Of a stretch of DNA of 64,000 bases, positions 49,910 through 60,475 are shown piece by piece (within the stretch, counting starts at the first letter, position 1; each line of letters starts with the position of its first letter). This stretch comes from Collibacillus ludicampi (GTDB lineage Bacteria; Bacillota; Bacilli; Tumebacillales; BOQE01). Where the stretch lies: NCBI RefSeq assembly GCF_023705585.1, contig NZ_BOQE01000001.1, positions 1 to 64,000 of the forward strand, in the 5' to 3' direction. Under the pieces are notes generated by a model that did not search any database, was not told the origin of the DNA, and saw nothing but the letters and a program-made list of their open reading frames with translations. A program made the translations under genes and the position numbers.

Positions 49910-49932
49910 TTAATTAAACACCAACCTGTTCG
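49910..49932. repeat. 23-bp direct repeat, copy 2
   Basis: Identical to 39715-39737; here it encodes the final codons of the tape-measure gene. Confidence 0.7.
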
Positions 49933-52633
49933 GCCCAATTGGACGTGACATGTTATTCATACGCGTATTCACGCCGAGACGACGCATCACAGCATCAGCA
50001 ATTTGGTCAGGGCTTTGATTTGCACCGTTGATGTGGAATGTGATGTACGTATCTCCTCCACTACCAAATCCACCATACCGATCAAACGTATCAGGTACAG
50101 CAGCGTTCGCAAGTTGATTGGATGCGCTTTTCACCATATGCGCATGATCATTGATACCCAACGCCATCCCCTGCGCAACAAATTGACCGTAAGTACGCAT
50201 CAACCGAGATGGACTTTGAATGCCTAATGCTTTACGAATCGGAGCAGGAACAACATCATCTATCCATGCACTGATTTTACTTTTCAACCATCCCCACATC
50301 GATTGAATACCATTCCAAATGCCCTCAACAATGTTATGACCGATAGTAGCCATCTTATCTGGCAACGATTTAAACCAATCGACCATCTCGTTGAATTTTT
50401 GTTTGATCCACTGCACCCATTGAGCAACGTGCTCTCGTATATGTCCGAAATTCGTTTTCCACGCTGCCCATAACAACGCGATGATAGCAATTACTCCCAA
50501 AATAATCCAGCCCACCGGCCCTAATGCGATTAACCAACTAGCCGCCATACGTACTGCTTGCACAGCTAATTGCGCCGCAAATTTAGCAACACCAGCACCT
50601 AATTGCGTAATCGCCAATAATACGCGCCCACCCGCTTGCATTGCGATAGTACCGAATCTTAGGAACGCGGAACCGGCTCTTGATAACAATCCAGGCAGTT
50701 TAGATATTCCTTGCAACGCTTTACTACTGATAAATTTACCCGCTGCCATTACACCCTTACCAGCAGCCGCAAATGGAGCAGCTAATCCCATCCTCATGCC
50801 TTTGGCGATTAGGCCGGCTGGTTTGGCTATTTTTTTGGCGCCCGATACAGTTCCTTTGATTCCCTTGCCGATGCCTTTGATCAGGCCTACGGAGCCTTTA
50901 CCAATGCCACGACCGAGAAATTTGGTTGCGCCTTTAAGTCCCAATACTTCAAGCGATTTCGACAGCATACCGACGATACCAGCAAGTGAAATCAATGCAC
51001 CGCCAAACGTCAACGCACTTGCAGCTGCGAGCGAGAAAAATTTCGTTGCTTTCGGGTGATCGTTAAGGTATCCCATGAACTTGGATAGCAACGTATTTAC
51101 TTTGACCAGTACGGGAACCAACGACTCCATGAGCGGTTTGCCCAATTGCTGACCAATGGTTTGCAAGTTACTTCCCGCGATGTGTAATTGGCCGTTAAAA
51201 CTGTCACGTATCACACCAATTTGATCATGCAACGACTTCTGGATATTCATCTGTTGCATCAATTGCTCGTACATATCCTTGTGACTGCTAATTATAGCGA
51301 AGTCTTGCCCTTGCTCCCCGAATATCTTGTTCATCAGCGCCGCCCATTCAAGTTCACCGCCGGATAAGGTTTTACCGGTTAGCAATTTAGACTGTTCCTG
51401 AATGTGTTCCAGCTGATCTTTAGATAATTGCGATGCGTAATTAGTGTGTACGCCTTTCGCGATGAACTCATCGTGCTTCTGTGATAGGATATTAACAATA
51501 TCGCCATAAGATCGAAGACTGTTCTTGTCCTTCAATAGCGCAGCGTAATCAATACCGGTGATCTCCATTTTGCCCGATTTCAGCTTATGACCGTGTATCC
51601 CACTGATCAAACCGGCATCAGCCATCGCTTCGAGTTGTTTCGATCCGGTTGCGGTGCCAATATACTTGAATGGATTGATGCGCTCCGCAAAATCTTTGAT
51701 ATGCGTACCGGCCATGCTTCCTTCGACCCCTGCACGCGCCTCCATCAACGTTGCGATTAAGTTATCCTGCTCTGTCCAGCCGAGATTCTTTACAACTGGC
51801 ATAGAATACTTGAACGCTTCCCCAATCGACTCTGAATTAGCATGTGTGATATTGATACCGCGATACATCATATCCGCAAATTGCTGCATACGCTGAATAT
51901 TCTGACTGATACCGGCATCGTCAGCCATACGCGCGAAGTTGTATGCGGTCTGCTCGGCGCTTGACGACTTACCCATTCCCACCTCAACTTCGGCCAGGTA
52001 CGTTGCTTCCGGTACGATCTTCTTCAGCGCATCAAGCTGAACACCAGCGTGTGCTAGTTCCAAATTGATTTTGTATAAGTCTGTTTTTCCGAAAAGCGTA
52101 GTCTGCGACAAGTCCTGCGCCATCTTATCGATTTCTTTCAATTTGGCGCTGGTCTGATCCAGTCCATATACTCCACCCAACTGAATCTGTGCCATCTGCA
52201 CGTCACCGGCTGATTTTGCGAGCTTAAACATCCCGTAATCAACGGCGACTCCCGCAGCGGCAACGGCTACACCACCCAACGCCACTTTCTTAAACTTTTC
52301 GTATGACGCAGTAAGCGCATCTAGTTTCTTTTGTTGCTCTTCAGCCGCGTCCAATCCACGAATTGCGGTGCGTAGTTGTTGAAATGATAACCCAGCATCT
52401 TTGGATTGCTGAATCAGTTTGGACAGTTTATTACGTCGATCCAAATCTTCGAATGCCTGCGTGATCTTATCGATCTCGCTTGCGGATGTACCTAGCGCCT
52501 TTAGACCACGTTGCATATCCGCGATCTGTTTCTGTGCTAACGATGTTGTTGCCGAGACTTGTTTGAATATCGGTGTAAAATAGTCAATTGCCTTTATCGC
52601 AACCGACAATTCAAACGCCTTTTCCATCCCCAT
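49910..52633 (-). CDS. Phage tail tape-measure protein
   Basis: The 907-residue protein is of the TP901 tape-measure type: a coiled-coil N-terminus, a glycine/alanine/lysine-rich central membrane-like block (LISLAGIVGMLSKSLEVLGL ... VGWIILGVIAIIALLWAAWK), and a helical C-terminus with KALGIQSPSRLMRTYGQFVA and TYITFHINGANQSPDQIADA. It sets tail length and helps DNA entry. It starts immediately after the stop of the preceding 130-aa gene. Confidence 0.92.
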   Translation of the reverse strand: MGMEKAFELSVAIKAIDYFTPIFKQVSATTSLAQKQIADMQRGLKALGTSASEIDKITQAFEDLDRRNKLSKLIQQSKDAGLSFQQLRTAIRGLDAAEEQQKKLDALTASYEKFKKVALGGVAVAAAGVAVDYGMFKLAKSAGDVQMAQIQLGGVYGLDQTSAKLKEIDKMAQDLSQTTLFGKTDLYKINLELAHAGVQLDALKKIVPEATYLAEVEVGMGKSSSAEQTAYNFARMADDAGISQNIQRMQQFADMMYRGINITHANSESIGEAFKYSMPVVKNLGWTEQDNLIATLMEARAGVEGSMAGTHIKDFAERINPFKYIGTATGSKQLEAMADAGLISGIHGHKLKSGKMEITGIDYAALLKDKNSLRSYGDIVNILSQKHDEFIAKGVHTNYASQLSKDQLEHIQEQSKLLTGKTLSGGELEWAALMNKIFGEQGQDFAIISSHKDMYEQLMQQMNIQKSLHDQIGVIRDSFNGQLHIAGSNLQTIGQQLGKPLMESLVPVLVKVNTLLSKFMGYLNDHPKATKFFSLAAASALTFGGALISLAGIVGMLSKSLEVLGLKGATKFLGRGIGKGSVGLIKGIGKGIKGTVSGAKKIAKPAGLIAKGMRMGLAAPFAAAGKGVMAAGKFISSKALQGISKLPGLLSRAGSAFLRFGTIAMQAGGRVLLAITQLGAGVAKFAAQLAVQAVRMAASWLIALGPVGWIILGVIAIIALLWAAWKTNFGHIREHVAQWVQWIKQKFNEMVDWFKSLPDKMATIGHNIVEGIWNGIQSMWGWLKSKISAWIDDVVPAPIRKALGIQSPSRLMRTYGQFVAQGMALGINDHAHMVKSASNQLANAAVPDTFDRYGGFGSGGDTYITFHINGANQSPDQIADAVMRRLGVNTRMNNMSRPIGPNRLVFN

Positions 52634-56320: not shown

Positions 56321-56647
56321 TCAGCCCCGTTTAAACAACAAAAGCCGCCCATCTTTGCAAATGAACGGCTGATAATATTCCTTCACTACTTTTTCAATTT
56401 CCTTGACTAGTGCATCATCATGATCACCACGAGCCATGATTTGCTTAAAATCGATCAAATACAGTTTCGGTTCCATACCATCATCCTCCAACTCGAATGG
56501 TGTGCAATAGTGTTCACGTATAAGCATTGCGATATCATCGAGATATTTCCCATCCACGACACAAACGCCGAGTTCATCAAATCTGTGCTGTGTTTGACGG
56601 GAAGTAACTAGGTTCGCTTTTTCCGGATTGATAAGTTTAACACGCAT
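56321..56647 (-). CDS. Tandem-paralogue phage protein (copy 3)
   Basis: MRVKLINPEKANLVTSRQTQ ... IAMLIREHYCTPFELEDDG, KLYLIDFKQI and YYQPFICKDGRLLLFKRG. It aligns with the two neighbours at 56668 and 57048 in an I-x2-L-x6-TPF, x-L-x-D-F/L and end -x-LLLF/Y-K pattern. AGAGGTGATATAG precedes the ATG. Function unknown. Confidence 0.6.
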   Translation of the reverse strand: MRVKLINPEKANLVTSRQTQHRFDELGVCVVDGKYLDDIAMLIREHYCTPFELEDDGMEPKLYLIDFKQIMARGDHDDALVKEIEKVVKEYYQPFICKDGRLLLFKRG

Positions 56648-56667: not shown

Positions 56668-57042
56668 TCAGTTTTTGTACAAGACTGCACGTTGCTTCTT
56701 AACCAGCAGGAATTTATATGTCCCATCAAACAACGGCTTTAACAACATTTCTAGTTGATAGTCGGGTTTTTCGCCGCCGTTCATATCCAGAATTACAAAT
56801 TGAGCCGGCGAATCGTCATGCACCACTTCAATCGGAACACAGTCGCATTGCTGCACGAACTTCAGGATATGATTAGGATCGGATGACTCAACATATCCAT
56901 CCATATCAAATGTGTAGCTCGTACTTGTTCCATCTGAGTTGGTGAAACCTACGCTCGCACCCTTGAATTGCTGTTTGTTTGCAATATTCGTAACAGCAAC
57001 ATCGAGATATGCGGAGTCTTGAATCTGCAGCTTAACACGTAT
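56668..57042 (-). CDS. Tandem-paralogue phage protein (copy 2) with apparent ATA start
   Basis: The longest ATG-started frame is only 78 codons (56904). The same frame is open upstream and encodes RVKLQIQDSAYLDVAVTNIA ... from an ATA codon (57040-57042) placed at the position where copy 3 has ATG (both read GATATAGAT(G/A)CGTGTTAA), with GGAGGTTT upstream. If ATA is used, the product is 124 aa and of normal paralogue length. Confidence 0.5.
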   Translation of the reverse strand: MRVKLQIQDSAYLDVAVTNIANKQQFKGASVGFTNSDGTSTSYTFDMDGYVESSDPNHILKFVQQCDCVPIEVVHDDSPAQFVILDMNGGEKPDYQLEMLLKPLFDGTYKFLLVKKQRAVLYKN

Positions 57043-57047
57043 CTATA

Positions 57048-57386
57048 TCAAACCTCCTTGTAATACAGCGCCACGTTTTGACGTACGCCGATGAGCTTCC
57101 ATTGCGCCAATTCACGAAGCAATGCTTCGGCGTCTTCATCCTTTGAATATGCCAGTGATTTCAAATTGACTAGCCGGTATTGCGTACCGCTCGTATCGTA
57201 TGGATCGATATGCGTTACGATAAATCCTTGATCCAGCAGCGCTTGAATGTGTTCAAGTTCTTCGACCTGAACTGTATTATCGTTGATGCAATAGAACTTA
57301 ATTTGTTTGCCGTTGTAATAAAGGGTATAGTACCTGTTTTCATCCATTGGAAGCTTGGTGTATGGTCGATGCATATATACTTTCAT
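57048..57386 (-). CDS. Tandem-paralogue phage protein (copy 1)
   Basis: The 112-residue protein (MKVYMHRPYTKLPMDENRYY ... LEHIQALLDQGFIVTHIDPY, YRLVNLKSL and the end NVALYYKEV) is the first of three tandem relatives. GGAGGGAATGAACA precedes the ATG. Confidence 0.6.
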   Translation of the reverse strand: MKVYMHRPYTKLPMDENRYYTLYYNGKQIKFYCINDNTVQVEELEHIQALLDQGFIVTHIDPYDTSGTQYRLVNLKSLAYSKDEDAEALLRELAQWKLIGVRQNVALYYKEV

Positions 57387-57404
57387 TGTTCATTCCCTCC
57401 GTCT

Positions 57405-57731
57405 CTAAATCTTCCATGGTTTATCAAGCGCCGCCGCTTTGTTGGAGTGAAATTCGGATTTTACGAACGTCATTTTTGTGATGTATTCGTTGACCGGCTC
57501 TTCTTTTGCCAAGGTATATCCCTGGAACGAGCGCGTCATCAACTGCTGGTCACGTTGCCAGTTCGACACGTTCTCAACGATCTTGTCAGCCATGTGTTCG
57601 TTTGTGGTGCTAGACTTTGAGTGAGTTGTCTTTTTCAGCTCCTCGATTTCGCGTGTTAGCTTCCGATACTCGTCTGCAGTTTCAATGAGCTTTTTGAGCA
57701 ATTGTTTTTGTGCAAATTCCTTATCAGTCAT
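57405..57731 (-). CDS. Hypothetical phage protein, 108 aa
   Basis: Start MTDKEFAQKQLLKKLIETAD after AAAGGAGAGATGATT; the ATG two codons earlier is also possible. Helical N-terminal half with coiled-coil character (RKLTREIEELKKTTH). No family recognised. Confidence 0.5.
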   Translation of the reverse strand: MTDKEFAQKQLLKKLIETADEYRKLTREIEELKKTTHSKSSTTNEHMADKIVENVSNWQRDQQLMTRSFQGYTLAKEEPVNEYITKMTFVKSEFHSNKAAALDKPWKI

Positions 57732-57744
57732 AATCATCTCTCCT

Positions 57745-57969
57745 TTAATTCGAAATAGTTGAATAATCATGTTGCCAATCCATAGCAGCGTCGATAAAGT
57801 CAATGTAAAACTTCAAAAATCGACGGCGTGCTTCTTCACTCATACGACGTTCCCCTGTTTCGATCATCGCAACGTAACTGTGACTGTATCCAACCGCTTT
57901 CGCAAATTCACGAACGCTTATTCCAAGCATCTGTCTGAGAAAGCGAAAGGTTTCTGGCTGGATTTGCAT
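57745..57969 (-). CDS. XRE-family regulator
   Basis: The 74-residue protein is a single HTH_3 domain (FRFLRQMLGISVREFAKAVG, YSHSYVAMIETGERRMSEEA). Start ATG 57969 is preceded by AAAGGGGGTG. It follows a hairpin region and leads the 57731 gene. It may regulate the small-gene operon. Confidence 0.75.
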   Translation of the reverse strand: MQIQPETFRFLRQMLGISVREFAKAVGYSHSYVAMIETGERRMSEEARRRFLKFYIDFIDAAMDWQHDYSTISN

Positions 57970-58213
57970 TTGAATCACCCCCTTTCAAGATGTAGACAGT
58001 GTTAACAAACCTCCGAAAAAATAAGAGCCCGCGTTGACGAGACGCGACCCTATTTTCCGTATATAGACAAGCTACATACGACAAAGAGAAAGGTATGGAG
58101 TGGTAGCGCATGGATGACCTGCGCCTATATATTAGTCCACTTATTCGCGCTAAAACCAACCTATATTTAATAAAATTTTTTATTATACCATAATTAACAT
58201 ATAATATAAAGTA
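57970..58213. other. Intergenic region with a GC-rich hairpin
   Basis: GTCGCGT/ACGCGGG-C with TTATTTTTT on the minus strand (58020-58055) looks like a terminator for the gene to the right. The XRE ribosome site follows. An ORF track through it is unsupported. Confidence 0.4.
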
Positions 58214-58987
58214 TCAATTTAATATTTTGGACATTTTTCTTATCGCTGCATCAGTGTTTTTACGTACTGCCTCGTCACTCACTCCCAATTTCTTTGCAAT
58301 ATCAACAAACGTGTAATCGTGCAGATAGTGCAATTCCAGACACAGACGTTGCTTTACGGTTAGTTGTTGAAGTGCGTTCCGAATATCGATCAGGATATCC
58401 AGAGCAACATGATCACCGCGCCAGATAGCTCTGTAATTGAGTTCGTCATAGTGTTCGAGTACGATGACGATTGATTCACATGAATATTTCTCTATCGAGC
58501 GAGGATCAATTGATGAATAGTTGAATTTAAACAATCCCATTCGTTGCGCATACGCAGGAACTAATTTTTCATCGTCTTCATCGTCATAGTTCATTTCATC
58601 GTCATCAGGTGATTCTAGAGGGCTACTTATGTATCGTGGGTTGTAAGGATATATTGTTTCATACATACGCTCTTCTTGACGTATAGTTTGGTACGCGTTC
58701 TTTTGACCGAGCTTTCTAGGATTTCTACTACCAGCGTAGTTGTAATCAAGCACCTCATATAGTACATCGAGCCAATATCGTGGCGGCCATACCTTAACCT
58801 TGTAATCGATAAACGCTTGATCCCATGCGTCGATTAATGTCTCAATCATACGCTTACGTTCGCGGAGTGGCACAGGATTATTCTGTTTTTTGCGTTCCAC
58901 GACCATTTTTCGCATTGTTGTAACGTAACGCCTGAATTGTACTCTTGCTTGCTCATAACCTTTTGAAAATACGTATTCCTGAGCCAC
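58214..58987 (-). CDS. Sigma-70 region 4-like phage regulator
   Basis: The 257-residue protein ends in a sigma-70 region 4 HTH: ALQQLTVKQRLCLELHYLHD and YTFVDIAKKLGVSDEAVRKN. The N-terminal part is charged and helical and lacks recognisable region 2. It could be an ArpU/late-regulator or an alternative sigma-like factor. Start GTG 58987 behind AAGGAAGGTG. Confidence 0.65.
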   Translation of the reverse strand: MAQEYVFSKGYEQARVQFRRYVTTMRKMVVERKKQNNPVPLRERKRMIETLIDAWDQAFIDYKVKVWPPRYWLDVLYEVLDYNYAGSRNPRKLGQKNAYQTIRQEERMYETIYPYNPRYISSPLESPDDDEMNYDDEDDEKLVPAYAQRMGLFKFNYSSIDPRSIEKYSCESIVIVLEHYDELNYRAIWRGDHVALDILIDIRNALQQLTVKQRLCLELHYLHDYTFVDIAKKLGVSDEAVRKNTDAAIRKMSKILN

Positions 58988-59002
58988 AGTTTCACCTTCC
59001 TT

Positions 59003-59333
59003 TTACTTAACTTTTTGTTTTTTGTATTTTTTGATTTTTTCGTTTGCTATTTTTACAGACTCAAAGAAAGCATCAAAATCAGGGGGGGTTTTTTAAGAAG
59101 CAATTTATGGCCAACTGTTTTGCACGCCCCCTTATACCTGGTCGTACAACTTTTTCACCGCCGCAATATTCAATGAGCTGGTGATATATCTTTTGACATT
59201 CAGGATCTTTGAATGCTTTTTTTCTTCGTTCTAAGTCCTCTATAGTTTTTTGACGGCAATATTCGTAATAAGCCATTTGCTTTTCGAGTTGTTTAAACTG
59301 CTCCTCGATTTGATTAAAACGTATGTTTGACAT
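59003..59333 (-). CDS. Phage protein with a homopolymer frameshift near its end
   Basis: The frame from MSNIRFNQIEEQFKQLEKQM to ...CFLKNPP stops at 59079. Directly before the stop are six A and seven C. Dropping one C (or reading +1) lets the frame run through DFDAFFESVKIANEKIKKYK and KQKVK to a TAA at 59003-59005, exactly 15 bp before the next gene's GTG and its ribosome site. I give the restored extent. Either the run is variable, the gene is broken, or the assembly has a one-base error. Confidence 0.5.
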
Positions 59334-59502
59334 TAACGTTACCGCCTTTCCCTTCGAATTTTTTCGTATCATGTCCCTGTCTTTATACTATATCAATAAT
59401 ATCATTTAGTCAATAATATATTTTGATATAATTGATAGGTGTTTATTATCGTGATATAGTTTGGTACAATAGATATAAAACCTAAACGGGAGTGTATAAT
59501 AC
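59334..59502. promoter_or_regulatory. Divergent control region with AT-rich inverted repeats
   Basis: TATATCAATAATAT ... ATATATTTTGATATA (59388-59432) and a TACAAT (about 59463) before the RsfA-like gene suggest overlapping promoter and operator for the divergent pair. Confidence 0.4.
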
Positions 59503-60114
59503 ATGGCAGGTAATCCAGGCGGCCCTCGTGTAGATTGGACGGAAGAAGAGTTTGACCGTTTGGCCGAAGTGGTGCTTGAAACGGTCGCTTCTGGCGGTAC
59601 AGTAACGGAGGCGTGTGAAAAGTTCTCTGAGGAGAGTAAGGGATTGAGATCGGTGGCCAGTTGCCGACTAAAGTGGAACACGATTCTCAGTGAGAAATAC
59701 GCAGCACAATACGAAATCGCAAAAGCACAAGGCGCTCAAGCACGAGCGAATCGTACATTAGAAGAATGCAGACGTATTAAAGTCAATCGCAGCTTGCCTA
59801 TCGTAACGAGACAACAAAAAGATGATCCTGATGAACCGATCCGAATGACTCAGCGGGAATTGATTCGCTTCTTGCGCAACGTTGAGATCGTCGATTCGAA
59901 TGCAGAACGGCTACAGAAACAATTGGACGAGGTTACACGGGAACGTGATGAATTAAAACAGCAATTGGAAAAGTTGCAGCGTGAATATGAAGAAGTTAAG
60001 GCCGAACGTGACAAGTTCTTGGAGGTATTCAATATTGCGCGGAAAAATGCGGCGGGAATCAATGACGATGAGCGAAAACTGTTGAGAATCAACAAGCACG
60101 GAGTAGTTGAATGA
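59503..60114 (+). CDS. RsfA-like (Myb/SANT) regulator
   Basis: The 203-residue protein has an N-terminal SANT/Myb-like domain: RVDWTEEEFDRLAEVVLETV, ASGGTVTEACEKFSEES and VASCRLKWNTILSEKYAAQY. This matches RsfA/YlbO, a prespore regulator of sigma-F genes, in order and spacing. The C-terminal ~85 residues are a long coiled coil (about 120-180). It is encoded inside the spo0A-splitting element, so it may link element behaviour to sporulation (inference). Confidence 0.75.
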   Translation: MAGNPGGPRVDWTEEEFDRLAEVVLETVASGGTVTEACEKFSEESKGLRSVASCRLKWNTILSEKYAAQYEIAKAQGAQARANRTLEECRRIKVNRSLPIVTRQQKDDPDEPIRMTQRELIRFLRNVEIVDSNAERLQKQLDEVTRERDELKQQLEKLQREYEEVKAERDKFLEVFNIARKNAAGINDDERKLLRINKHGVVE

Positions 60115-60119
60115 GCACA

Positions 60120-60155
60120 AAAAAGCCGACTTCATGAGTCGGTTGTTTTCTTTTC
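60120..60155 (+). terminator. Terminator after the RsfA-like gene
   Basis: CCGACT/AGTCGG stem followed by TTGTTTTCTTTT. Confidence 0.75.
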
Positions 60156-60319
60156 CTCATCTCCATCGTTACGCTTATCGCTCTTCAATTTGCGTGCATA
60201 ATCCAATGTTCGAATAACCATTTATTTTCCATACATAGTTCATCGAATTGATTTATCACTTCCAGATGTTTCTATTATCTTAAAATCATGTGATTTTCTT
60301 CCCCGTATAGCCACATCTT
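60156..60319. other. Short interval with overlapping mini-ORFs
   Basis: On the minus strand several frames of 20-30 codons follow each other (for example MAIRGRKSHDFKIIETSGSD and INQFDELCMENKWLFEHWIM). Each is too short to accept. Confidence 0.25.
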
Positions 60320-60475
60320 TCAACTCCTAATGAATTTATCTCTAGTTTCATATTTTTCATATAATTCTATCATTATTTTTAATACGTATTCCAACGCACG
60401 TCGTTTTTTGTTTTCATCTCGCGGTTTATCGCTTTTCCCAATCGTAATAATAAATTCGTCATTTTCTGCAACCAT
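60320..60475 (-). CDS. Small phage protein, 51 aa
   Basis: GGGAGGGATGACGG precedes MVAENDEFIITIGKSDKPRD .... The rest (ENKKRRALEYVLKIMIELYE) is helical and charged. No family recognised. Confidence 0.5.
   Translation of the reverse strand: MVAENDEFIITIGKSDKPRDENKKRRALEYVLKIMIELYEKYETRDKFIRS

Follow-up and report, generated by a model that had tools for sequence, protein, structure and literature searches.

An apparent ATA start codon in the middle gene of a tandem array in a prophage-like element of Collibacillus ludicampi

The 64,000-nucleotide stretch analyzed here (the window; contig NZ_BOQE01000001.1, positions 1 to 64,000) carries three adjacent small genes on the minus strand. Copy 1 (57048..57386, 112 aa) and copy 3 (56321..56647, 108 aa) start with ATG, whereas the frame between them, copy 2 (56668..57042), begins with ATA at the position of its homologues' ATG (57040..57042). 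The start region of copy 2 reads TACAAGGAGGTTTGATATAG-ATA(57042)-CGTGTTAAG on the minus strand, with the stop at 56668, and that of copy 3 reads GAGGTGATATAG-ATG-CGTGTTAAA with the same leader end. A sequence-only reading of this DNA had described an ATA in copy 2 where copy 3 has ATG, a good Shine-Dalgarno sequence upstream of it, and an open frame giving a full-length product. All of this was borne out, as the two codons occupy matching positions, AAGGAGGT stands nine bases 5' of the ATA, and the frame is open from 57042 to 56668 for 124 codons. An in-frame TAG lies directly 5' of the ATA, and the copy 2 frame can therefore not be extended upstream.

The same reading called the three genes a paralogue array, a description that is borne out mainly by links through third sequences, the direct copy-to-copy BLAST comparisons being weak. 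Within a set of 11 sequences, copy 2 matched copy 3 at E 7, and copy 1 matched neither copy 2 nor copy 3 at E 10. The related gene of a second element in the same genome matched both copy 3 (E 7e-22) and copy 2 (E 1e-5), and further matches linked copy 2 to L014 (E 4e-9) and copy 1 to L013 (E 4e-6). None of the three copies had a Pfam or PHROGs match over the cut-off (Pfam lines far below it were disregarded), and a fold search of a copy 2 structure model against BFVD and PDB returned nothing at E of 0.001 or below. This model, with three rows, had a middling mean pLDDT of 71.6, with residues 9-25 below 50. The copy 2 family is flanked by an HTH and sigma-like block and by a replication-type helicase-like or primase gene, a genomic place that suggests an early accessory gene.

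The second element (C1:2464335-2467714) is 96 percent identical to a block at 57041..60416 on the minus strand, and the match stops at the copy 2 start codon. In that element, copy 1 is followed by TACAAGGAGGGATGATATAG-ATG at the place equivalent to the copy 2 ATA; the leader is nearly the same, and the gene that it precedes is a different family member. Over the final 148 bases of copy 1 the elements differ at 35 sites, mostly synonymous (pS 0.52, pN 0.15), which suggests that purifying selection has acted on copy 1. Window positions 57200-59599 differ from the second element by 4 substitutions and 2 gap columns. Within the same genome, the two elements thus share 2.4 kb with 4 substitutions amid flanks that differ by a quarter or more, a pattern that suggests recent exchange or conversion.

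Among the 22 ORFs at 43134-63997 of the window that were compared with PHROGs, a tape measure protein (49910-52633) was the sole structural phage protein, and none was named as terminase, portal, or capsid. The tape measure protein of the second element, likewise the sole structural phage protein among its ORFs compared with PHROGs, is split over two ORFs (L004:15646-17403 and L004:17451-18110), and the match of that element's primase-like protein to the PHROG profiles is confined to their C-terminal part. Both prophage-like elements look incomplete by gene content, and the one carrying copy 2 is apparently a mosaic, incomplete prophage.

The Shine-Dalgarno sequence of copy 2 (AAGGAGGT, 57052..57059, minus strand) lies within the 3' end of copy 1. 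Pairing with the genome's own 16S tail amounts to -13.1 kcal/mol for both copy 2 and copy 3, and the values for copy 1 (-13.4) and the second-element gene (-13.8) lie close by. A strong Shine-Dalgarno sequence at proper spacing is a feature of functional AUA-start genes, and copy 2 has it. Across the 4.09 Mb genome, the leader motif GAGG-N(1-4)-GATATAGAT has three occurrences, one each ahead of copy 2, of copy 3, and of the second-element gene. In viral contigs the leader pattern was found in 34 stretches, none of which encodes a relative; in the eight with ATA, no frame of more than 15 codons followed it, and each of the five frames exceeding 56 codons follows an ATG. A stricter pattern that includes the first codons had no match in viral contigs. 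The genome (G000) gave 12 full-length 16S matches and two partial ones (C1:1811490-1812371 and 1978904-1979782), the latter covering approximately positions 9-873 of the model.

Between the ATA and the first in-frame ATG (56902..56904, minus strand), the frame contains no ATG, GTG, or TTG, the only near alternatives being CTG at 57030 and ATT at 57024 and 56985. Codons 1-46 show coding-like codon use (0.138 bits per codon, compared with 0.03 for the best of the five other frames), which is a modest result, and their openness is weak evidence alone, given that 428 of 5000 dinucleotide shuffles were also open. Close to its N-terminus, copy 2 carries some 15 to 20 inserted residues that have no counterpart in the other rows of the family alignment. 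A structured start region was considered for copy 2 and dropped, as folding there is no stronger than in shuffles (z 0.00).

The sequence-only reading had offered two outcomes, either use of ATA as a start or truncation of the protein to the ATG at 56904. Translation from this ATG, the first in frame, would give a 78-residue protein, but the codon has no Shine-Dalgarno sequence, with a 16S-tail pairing of -2.2 kcal/mol that is almost nil beside the value at the ATA, and 46 residues would be lost, including the predicted strands at 2-7, 30-34, and 40-45. We regard such a truncated product as very unlikely. The proposal is supported in part, the homologues described below favoring a derived ATG-to-ATA change. 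The copy 1 stop lies five bases before the ATA, a proximity that might invite a fusion of copies 1 and 2 through frameshifting. Such a fusion is improbable in the extreme, because the TAG adjoining the ATA is in the copy 2 frame and a ribosome shifting into that frame from copy 1 would meet it.

Six of the seven family members examined start with ATG, copy 2 alone having ATA. Copy 1 of both elements is included in the seven, and as their 5' parts are identical, the ATG members amount to five independent ones; three small L013/L014 neighbours of only marginal similarity and a weak match in G062 (E 0.007, 28 percent, within an 890-codon frame) are left out of this count. A profile search of 398 genomes of the class yielded one homologue each in G395 and G160, and profile searches found no homologue in 13 other genomes of the order and no additional one in 41 genomes of the relatives' family. 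Comparison with related elements, suggested earlier as a check, thus gave ATG in the second-element gene and in the homologues of the two other genomes. In four of the five rows other than copy 2, the N-terminal motif M-x-V-(K/R/V)-L falls at the start in the alignment; in the remaining row, copy 1, a seven-residue insertion is needed at that point.

The sets searched yielded no close relative of copy 2. Searches of viral contigs for relatives of copies 1, 2, and 3, the second-element gene (P0001), and the HTH gene returned none, nor did a search of genome contigs for relatives of copies 1 and 2; copy 2 as a tblastn query against phages produced only chance-level matches, and a 2.1 kb blastn query matched nothing in plasmids or phages. 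Consequently, an ancestral ATG rests on homologues that are 24 to 32 percent identical to copy 2, and hence distant, and not on orthologous DNA. Since copy 2 is the only one of the seven members to lack ATG, its ATA is most simply read as a derived G-to-A change rather than a conserved ATA start. Canonical starts in the homologues beside a non-canonical one in copy 2 are the pattern of a start-loss pseudogene. Copy 2 has no further disabling lesion, all 124 codons being open, and the change may be recent.

A single base separates the start of copy 2 from that of its six ATG homologues, and the A at 57040 could be a sequencing or assembly error in a gene that really starts with ATG. However, the two elements clearly differ here, so collapsing one onto the other would not yield ATA, and the assembly appears sound (completeness 99.87 percent, contamination 0.27 percent, with one contig of 3.99 Mb). 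We consider an error of this kind unlikely.

Alternatively, the AUA may be a retained weak start that sets the output of copy 2 below that of copies 1 and 3, as in ccpN, with output dependent on the level of IF3, the product of a host gene, infC, that apparently has an AUU start of its own. Copy 2 keeps a strong, undamaged leader, and regulation of ccpN by an AUA start has been reported in Bacillota (PMC13009471). In the same genome, infC (L015; G000:C1 near 3004196, minus strand) has an apparent ATT start, GGAGGTGACTCACG-ATT-AGC, and no ATG, GTG, or TTG lies ahead of the conserved infC domain. As infC seems to start with ATT, a reading from its frame and its GGAGGTGA leader, this host probably uses AUH starts. 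Against a retained device, the start region lacks structure beyond that of shuffles, and none of the six other homologues has ATA; a functional AUA-start gene would be expected to keep its AUA in homologues, and these are distant (24-32 percent). With ATA unconserved in the homologues found, the comparison gives no sign of such a device. Tuning of copy 2 below its neighbours by a retained AUA is therefore a doubtful proposition, and dependence of that tuning on IF3 is equally doubtful.

The explanation we hold to be probable, if far from assured, is a recent ATG-to-ATA change in an accessory gene that is otherwise intact and belongs to a mosaic prophage-like element. The change would leave AUA initiation leaky and at a low level, or the gene nearly silent. 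The observed parts of this explanation are the frame, the Shine-Dalgarno sequence, and the ATG of the other homologues examined; initiation at the AUA is what we infer. Ribosomes would be recruited by AAGGAGGT and by the end of copy 1 translation five bases before the AUA; with fMet-tRNA they would initiate there far less often than at an AUG, or not at all. The copy 2 protein would then be present at a low level or lost, and the inner ATG at 56904 would serve to no useful extent. With a leader this strong, leaky initiation at AUA is plausible. Truncation is less likely than weak initiation, which in published cases runs at roughly 1 to 30 percent of the AUG level, or than effective loss of the protein. 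Copy 2 is probably dispensable, with more decay to be expected; as a counterpoint, it carries no second lesion that would mark decay. Most likely, copy 2 is an ordinary dimmed or dying gene.

AUA has been described as a rare start (PMC9094748). The AUA of S. aureus ccpN and citZ gives about 10 percent of AUG, and in rich medium that of ccpN reaches up to 30 percent (PMC13009471); an ATG-to-ATA change in rpoS of E. coli O104:H4 reduces its protein by as much as 5-fold (PMC12864459, which cites Hecht 2017 for AUA initiation of at most 1 percent). An ATA has likewise been reported for ralp3 in emm4 Streptococcus (PMC11238559), and the starts reported for phage SPP1 are AUG, GUG, and UUG (PMC6316719). 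An aUA without a Shine-Dalgarno sequence fails as a coupled start (PMC9955659), a result that argues against coupling alone but is not directly applicable to copy 2, which has one.

As in S. aureus infC, ccpN, and citZ, the AUA of copy 2 stands behind a strong Shine-Dalgarno sequence. Unlike that of ccpN, which is reported as conserved to B. subtilis and was reporter-tested (PMC13009471), it occurs in one gene and is known from sequence. Similar to rpoS and ralp3, copy 2 would have ATA replacing ATG in an otherwise intact gene; for those two, versions of the gene with ATG are known (PMC12864459, PMC11238559), whereas the ATG of copy 2 comes from distant homologues only. AUA starts and ATG-to-ATA changes are already in print for Bacillota and E. 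coli (PMC13009471, PMC12864459, PMC11238559), and copy 2 would be at most one further case of an AUA start or of start-codon loss within a mobile element. Its ATA is a real yet ordinary oddity. Gene callers restricted to ATG, GTG, and TTG would place the start at 56904 and miss the first 46 codons, and the adjacent copies 1 and 3 form a natural internal control for reporter work.
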